This document shows positions 31,744 to 33,309 of a DNA stretch of 64,000 bases, piece by piece; the stretch's first letter is position 1, and every line of letters starts with the position of its first letter. Source of the stretch: Penicillium oxalicum (taxonomy: Eukaryota > Ascomycota > Eurotiomycetes > Eurotiales > Aspergillaceae); the NCBI RefSeq assembly GCF_001723175.1, contig NC_064654.1:1-64000 (forward strand), written 5' to 3'. The notes under the pieces were generated by a model. The model ran no database searches, had not been told where the DNA came from, and worked only from the letters and a program-made list of their open reading frames with translations. The position numbers were made by a program, and so were the translations under genes.

Positions 31744-33309
31744 TTGCCTCGACTCCAGACATATCGCTCATTCTCGACGACTCGTCGGCACCAGCAGATC
31801 CTGCGACCCGCGACAGCTCCCAAACCCACGCCGGACGTGAAACACATCCGCCAGAATGCCGAGCTCTACGCACAGAATTGCATAGACAGGAATTATGCGG
31901 GTCATACAGAATACCCATCCAGGATTCAAGCTCTATCCGACGAGGCCAGGCAACTCGATTAGGACCTCAAGTCTCCGCGCTCGCAGATCAAGCAGCTGGA
32001 AAAGACCATCGAAAAGCTATCCATTGCGGCACGGCAAGCTTCGACCAACAGCACAGAGAGTAATAGCTAAGGGGTAACAACGGCTAAAGAGCTAGGAGAC
32101 CTAAAATCAGAAGTGTAGCGCTTAAAAGACGAGTCGCACGCCATAATCGTCCCCAAATCCGACTGCATAAACGAGATCAACCGCCTCGCGCTATCCCTCC
32201 CAAACCTCTCATCCCCCGAGACTCCCACCGGCGACGACCCCCATCTAGTCCATTATCTCAATTTTGACCCCTAAATCCCACCCGCCTAGACGCGTCAGTC
32301 CACTACAGAGCTCTAAGCTCGATCGCACATTACCATCGGCACCGAACTCGGTCTTCTCGATTTTACAAGCTCAGCCACCACGACCGGATAGGGTTAGTAC
32401 TTCCTGATCAACGAGGGCGCTATACTAGAGCAAGCGCTAGTCCAATACGCCTTGAGTGTAGCGCGCCGTCGCGGCTAGAGAACTATCTCGCCGCCATCAA
32501 TCGTCTACTCCTACATCGCCGAGGCATACGGCTTCCAGCCGCGCGACCAGCACAATAAGCAGCAAATCTGGTCAATTGAGCAGAACGAGCGCGACCGCGA
32601 TACAAAGACACCGCGCTCGTTGACCGGAACCGCAGAAGTTCCCCTCGCGGCAATGTATACAGGCCGCGATATCAATAATTCCGAGCTCCCTCTTAAGCTA
32701 GTGGGCGCAAGCCGCTACTATCGCGCAGAGGCGGGCTCGCGTGGCGTCGACACAAAGGGTCTCTACCGTGTTCGCGAGTTTACGAAGGTCGAGCTATTCG
32801 GCTAGACAGATAACCTCGTCTCTGAAACAGCAGCAGACAAGCCCACCTCAGACACACTCTTTGCGGAACTACTAGACATCCAAACCGAGATCCTCACGTC
32901 CCTCCATCTCCCCTGCCGCGTCCTCGAGATACCCACTAGCGATCTAGGCGCCAGTGCAACCCGCAAGCGCGGTATAGAAGCGCTTTTCCCGTCACGATTC
33001 CGCCCTACGCCTGACTCAATGAGTCCGGTCGATCCCGCCGCGTCAGAGCTTGAATCTGCCTGGGGCGAGGTTCCTTCGGCGTCCATCTGTACGGATTATC
33101 AGAGTCGGCGACTGGTGACCCGTGTCCGTGGTGGTGCGCTCAAAGAGTAGCGGTTCCCGCATACCGTGAATGGAACTGCCATGGCCGTTCCGCGGGTGTT
33201 GGCTGCTATTCTTGAGAATGAGTGGGATGCGGAGCGAGGTGTGGTTGTTGTGCCGGAGGTGCTAAGGCCGTGGATGGATGGGATGGAGACGATTGGGCCG
33301 CGGGAGTAG
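31744..33309 (+). pseudogene. Mitochondrial-type seryl-tRNA synthetase copy with RIP-type stops
   Basis: One frame stays in register for all 1,566 nt but contains eleven internal TAG/TAA codons. Reading through them gives a mitochondrial-like presequence (YRSFSTTRR), the N-terminal tRNA-binding coiled coil, the class II motif 2 region (YRAEAGSRGVDTKGLYRVREFTKVELFG) and the motif 3 region ([23 protein letters not shown]). Stops fall where SerRS has Trp or Gln (TG-stop-G-stop-YFLINEGA, ELFG-stop-T), i.e. TGG to TAG and CAA/CAG to TAA/TAG. A functional gene must exist elsewhere, because the enzyme charges mitochondrial tRNA-Ser and is essential. This is a duplicated copy silenced by point mutation. 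Confidence 0.9.

Follow-up and report, generated by a model that had tools for sequence, protein, structure and literature searches.

The stretch of DNA analysed here, referred to as the window, comprises the first 64,000 nucleotides of contig NC_064654.1 of Penicillium oxalicum. It opens with a telomere array (1-138, plus strand) in which (CCCCTAA)n is accompanied by some (CCCTAA) units; this corresponds to the TTAGGGG telomere repeat described for the species in PMC3562324 and PMC9241887. At a distance of 31.7 kb from this array lies a pseudogene of mitochondrial seryl-tRNA synthetase (SerRS), which runs on the plus strand from the start codon of the family to its stop (31684-33309) and carries 12 internal stops. 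Just upstream of it, as also at the resident locus described below, is a cytochrome b561 gene, here a pseudogene (30497-31390, plus strand) broken by one stop (31142) and one 1-base deletion (near 30919/30920) relative to the resident gene. A dispersed repeat some 740 bp long, which is likely to be an LTR and has many copies in the genome, occupies 24999-25738 (plus strand), and another dispersed repeat lies on the opposite side of the stretch that bears the genes (41138-42000, plus strand). When the own genome was searched with 20 kb of sequence, mainly repeats were among the best candidates scored, and the known SerRS match was absent there.

The original prediction had recognized at 31744-33309 a mitochondrial SerRS frame with eleven internal TAG or TAA codons and no indel, and this description is largely borne out. 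With stops written as X, the translation has the mitochondrial SerRS chain 1wle as its best PDB match (E 2.3e-48) and matches the Pfam SerRS core and N-terminal domains. The frame is uninterrupted apart from the 11 codons, and no frameshift is seen in SerRS, since every gap in its DNA alignment with the resident gene is a multiple of three in length. The start codon of the family lies upstream, at 31684, and in frame with it is a twelfth stop, a TGA at 31735 in an Arg position. The further statement that the stops stand at Trp or Gln positions is correct for 10 of the 11 (five Trp and five Gln, one of the latter being variable among relatives) and incorrect for that at 33148, where 15 of the 16 relatives shown have Ser. 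Two stops among the 12 fall outside the CpA/TpG type. An alternative genetic code was set aside, as the stops fall at Gln, Trp, Ser and Arg positions. A tblastn search of plasmids gave 95 records, every one below 60% identity.

Resident genes, gene trees and origin of the copy

DNA searches of the own genome (G000; 30.77 Mb, 17 contigs) found one other SerRS locus, an intact frame of 552 codons on contig C2 near 3.46 Mb, which shares 99.5% identity with PDE_04862 from strain 114-2. The copy is 74% identical to this resident gene over 1560 aligned bases, with 226 transitions and 175 transversions. The transitions are symmetric (C>T 59 and T>C 55; G>A 59 and A>G 53), and identity at codon positions 1, 2 and 3 is 85, 90 and 48%. 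Such a pattern is that of two genes which have long evolved under protein-level selection. The SerRS copy is 88% identical to P. daleae and 79% to the resident gene.

The relationships of the two pseudogenes were examined in separate trees. In the SerRS tree, built from the copy and 37 proteins chosen among the matches listed, the copy groups with P. daleae, P. cataractarum and P. brasilianum on a branch supported at 86/78 and without a star. The resident gene is joined there by P. diatomitis (100/100), and constraining the copy to join the P. oxalicum SerRS genes is rejected (p-AU 0.006). In the b561 tree (the copy and 26 chosen proteins), a starred group (96/89) contains the copy, P. subrubescens, P. 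ochrochloron, two further sequences and the copy of strain 114-2, and the resident gene groups with P. ucsense and P. diatomitis (100/100); here too the constraint with the resident P. oxalicum genes is rejected (p-AU 7e-5). The b561 copy is 93% identical to one further sequence, 89% to P. subrubescens and 72% to the resident gene. For both genes the trees and AU tests, and for SerRS the codon-position divergence as well, agree that the resident gene is not the closest relative of the copy, and the gene trees conflict with the host's own orthologues, the SerRS donor branch being modest (86/78). The species nearest in b561, P. subrubescens and P. ochrochloron, are absent among the 120 SerRS matches listed, and the donor is therefore placed to a group and not to a species. 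The species of the donor group and P. oxalicum presumably belong to one section, Lanata-Divaricata.

These results bear directly on the proposal of a recent duplication of the essential resident SerRS into the subtelomere, with silencing of the copy there by RIP that would leave C>T and G>A differences only. Stops of RIP type and closeness to the telomere agree with it; the transversions, the symmetry of the transitions, the third-position divergence and both gene trees do not. The original prediction expected that all differences from the intact gene would be C-to-T or G-to-A, and this expectation fails against the resident gene, which is not the template of the copy; it also accepted in advance that many transversions against the intact paralogue would tell against duplication, and the alignment contains just such a number. 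A recent RIP-mutated duplicate of the resident gene is thus extremely improbable, being ruled out by the transversions, the divergence by codon position, and the trees and AU tests of both genes. A RIP pseudogene full of stops need not derive by duplication from a gene of its host, and caution is needed in reading it that way.

Both the SerRS and the b561 tree separate the copy from the resident genes and join it to other Penicillium species; most likely, therefore, it is a fragment of foreign origin with two genes (b561 plus SerRS). The fragment would derive from the Penicillium group of P. daleae, P. cataractarum, P. brasilianum, P. subrubescens and P. ochrochloron; the two trees and the gene order suggest that introgression or horizontal transfer brought it into the P. 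oxalicum lineage, where it ended near the chromosome end. The SerRS copy had a normal coding history before its death, because the differences are mostly at third positions and SerRS has no frameshift. An older duplication could account for some of the same observations: had SerRS been duplicated before P. oxalicum and the P. daleae group diverged, a second copy might have stayed long in use, been lost elsewhere and been killed by RIP recently. The coding-type divergence is compatible with this, as is the fact that the grouping of SerRS with the donors reaches just 86/78. The b561 copy, however, is nested in the starred P. subrubescens/P. ochrochloron group (96/89), so that many losses would be needed, and the ancient duplication is regarded as unlikely.

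The order of the two genes is an ordinary one. Adjacent locus tags are seen in P. cataractarum (N7496_001282/001283) and P. diatomitis (N7539_001950/001951), and the pair is also adjacent by locus tag in P. canariense, P. capsulatum, P. nucicola and P. maclennaniae. The flanks of the pair in the window (27.4-30.4 kb and 33.4-39.7 kb) have no match at the resident C2 locus. Several Penicillium and Aspergillus records (P0013, P0055, P0060, P0077 and others) give b561 and SerRS as a single protein with both Pfam domains, which may reflect either merged annotations or true fusions.

Part of the fragment can also be followed in a second strain. The protein PDE_02126 (P0238) of strain 114-2 is 99% identical to the b561 copy over 47% of the query; it aligns to 30497-31144 of the window, and its C-terminal end is exactly the b561 stop of the window. 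This database protein is a model on a fragment of the b561 pseudogene, ending at a RIP-type stop, and should be used with caution as such. The match and the shared stop mean that the fragment and the b561 stop predate the split of strains HP7-1 and 114-2, an age that applies to b561 only. An assembly or contamination artefact is ruled out for b561, since the b561 copy occurs in strain 114-2.

Between the telomere and the pair, biosynthesis-like genes are found at 13109-24135, with matches to an FAD mono-oxygenase (13109-14518, minus strand), an O-methyltransferase (17178-17714, weak), a P450 piece (19856-20551, minus strand) and a further O-methyltransferase (23326-24135, plus strand). These matches, all within 13-24 kb, would be in keeping with a SerRS copy that once served as the self-resistance gene of these neighbours and later died. 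Against this, SerRS appears to have arrived with an ordinary neighbour, b561, in ordinary order, and both are broken; a role in self-resistance is highly improbable.

RIP signature in the SerRS copy

The host genome bears the marks of RIP. The copies of the 740-bp dispersed repeat (19, plus that of the window) differ mainly by transitions, with 0-7 transversions each, and have RIP indices of 0.2-2.0, their majority consensus being itself partly mutated. These copies (L029-L047 and window 24999-25738) range from lightly to heavily RIP-mutated, as if they differed in age. Two C5-methyltransferase loci (L006-L008; G000:C6:980259-981217 and C6:3485217-3485555) encode candidate RIP enzymes, either of which may be the RID orthologue. 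The changes in the SerRS copy resemble the RIP of Neurospora and other ascomycetes, and that of the dispersed repeats of this genome, in being C>T in CpA/TpG, clustered, and productive of stops at Gln and Trp codons.

The evidence was gathered at the protein level and by composition. At the protein level the donor reference consisted of proteins, and any replacement explicable by one C>T step in CpA was counted as RIP-compatible. At 463 sites agreed among three donor-group proteins the copy differs at 44, and 20 of these 44 replacements are RIP-compatible; under the same rule the resident SerRS has none in 53 (p 6e-9), or none in 15 when P. diatomitis is added to the reference (p 0.001). A count free of stops is fairer, because a gene in use cannot keep them, and it gives 11 of 34 for the copy, where the resident gene has none of 53 (p 1e-5), or none of 15 with P. 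diatomitis in the reference (p 0.01). The RIP-compatible sites are clustered along the copy (p 0.001) and the other replacements are not (p 0.29). Counted from 31684, there are 480 sites and 46 changes; 21 are RIP-compatible, among them 9 of the 11 stops that lie at agreed sites, and the 25 that are not include older divergence. The RIP-compatible changes divide into 5 on the plus strand and 16 on the minus strand; beyond 32331 all 12 belong to the minus strand. Regional strand bias is a feature of RIP.

By composition, the signal is concentrated in a tract at 31901-32950 (plus strand), where TpG is depleted and TpA enriched. Of the 12 stops, 9 fall in this tract at sites both unanimous and RIP-compatible, and one more falls at the variable Gln site. 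Its TpG/CpA counts are 18/83, as compared with 49/71 in the resident gene (p 2e-4); the two genes do not differ in a GT/AC control (p 0.77), nor in TpG/CpA outside the tract (p 0.28), and none of 836 core windows of 1050 bp is as lopsided in TpG/CpA as the tract. The ratio of CTA to CTG codons is 14:4 in the copy versus 3:11 in the resident gene. The composite RIP index of the 500-bp windows starting at 32001 and 32501 is +0.32 and +0.23, values which 6 and 9 core windows out of 789, respectively, equal or surpass, and the windows starting at 31501 and 33001 are ordinary. Whole-gene RIP indices of the copy are weak (0.88 and 1.02), the signal being clear only by segment. In the direct comparison with the resident gene, RIP-context changes number 30 forward and 15 reverse, against 88 and 93 in other contexts (p 0.03), a contrast diluted by old divergence.

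The claim of RIP-type mutation in a SerRS copy near the chromosome end is thus upheld by both the replacement counts and the depletion of TpG in the tract. The functional gene, for which the same measurement had been proposed, has ordinary RIP indices besides its lack of RIP-compatible replacements, and no trace of the suggested threat by RIP was found at the original locus, although selection on a gene in use would purge damaging changes too. In the b561 copy, one of eight changes at 142 agreed sites is RIP-type. The proportion of changes does not differ significantly from that of SerRS (1/8 vs 21/46, p 0.12), and the difference per site is weak (1/142 vs 20/463, p 0.04).

Leakage of RIP from adjacent repeats (25.0-27.3 kb and 39.8-42 kb) into SerRS is another conceivable source of the tract, as strongly RIP-mutated repeats stand on either side. 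No gradient is seen, however: only 3 of the 23 windows of 500 bp starting from 28501 to 39501 are positive, two of them in SerRS and one at 29501, and leakage is accordingly rated improbable. The 500-bp segment at 29501-30000, with a RIP index of +0.26, lies outside SerRS and the listed repeats. The multicopper oxidase gene at 37474-39600, in several open pieces, is without a RIP signature beside the RIP-mutated pseudogene.

A foreign fragment subsequently altered by RIP is, with good confidence, the reading to be preferred. The RIP episode may have been short, given a tract limited to part of the gene and biased to one strand, and a frame free of frameshifts; it struck about 1 kb of the SerRS copy, mainly at minus-strand cytosines, and gave rise to the majority of the nonsense codons.

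Possible triggers of the RIP episode

The SerRS target differs from those of usual RIP in having no close duplicate found in the genome; as a homologous second copy, only the 74%-identical resident locus was found. The likeliest trigger would be a pairing of the foreign copy with this diverged resident SerRS in the best-matching stretch, the clean resident gene being inherited afterwards. The best 500 bp against the resident gene (32317-32816) are 78% identical and lie inside the RIP tract; their identity rises to 82% if RIP-type differences are scored as matches, a measure that favours the tract. Two observations count against a resident-gene trigger, namely that the 3' end of SerRS, although 77-79% identical to the resident gene, was spared by RIP, and that the resident gene has no reciprocal RIP changes. 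Triggering by the resident SerRS is hence quite possible, yet short of probable.

The main rival keeps the foreign origin and places the trigger in a second copy of the foreign fragment, once present in the same genome and since lost. RIP usually targets close duplicates, the spared 3' end does not track identity to the resident gene, and in Pyricularia, according to PMC10473863, acquired segments with RIP-like changes are duplicated. On the other side, no second foreign copy was found in this genome, and a whole duplicate should bring RIP to the flanks and to b561, whereas the tract ends inside SerRS. A lost second copy is therefore a serious possibility, held with some reserve. The clean resident gene would fit either trigger, as damaged progeny may have been lost or the clean copy may have come from the other parent.

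Taken as a whole, the explanation in which a foreign b561-SerRS fragment underwent a RIP episode, with the resident SerRS as its possible trigger, is judged likely to be the best available. A bolder extension, offered tentatively, is that RIP would have formed a barrier against gene flow: the foreign orthologue would have been recognized through its roughly 80% identity to an essential gene resident on a different chromosome, nonsense codons would have been written into the best-matching stretch, and the clean resident gene would have been kept. If this is true, genome defence polices introgressed core genes, beyond repeats.

RIP is known mostly from transposons and engineered duplications, and a RIP-inactivated, apparently foreign housekeeping gene is an unusual combination of ordinary parts. 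Among the titles and abstract openings listed by literature searches, none dealt with this locus. A close parallel is in Pyricularia oryzae, where horizontally acquired segments of 0.2 Mb are reported to be duplicated and to carry RIP-like changes (PMC10473863); the two cases share acquired DNA whose source is a related species, the presence of pseudogenes and an elevated level of RIP-like change, but here the fragment holds two genes and a second foreign copy was not found. For the trigger, the parallel is the interspersed-homology RIP of Neurospora, in which, according to PMC4858203, partial homology can suffice, at 36% overall identity in designed repeats. Partial homology as a possible trigger is shared with that system, which relied on engineered repeats set close together in a laboratory cross, in contrast to the natural orthologues on different chromosomes considered here. 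A diverged foreign gene with a local, strand-biased RIP tract offers a natural test of the interchromosomal homology needed for RIP, and the same locus one of whether RIP limits introgression between species. Farther from the telomere, the window also contains pieces of an ABC transporter gene (54899-59873, minus strand).
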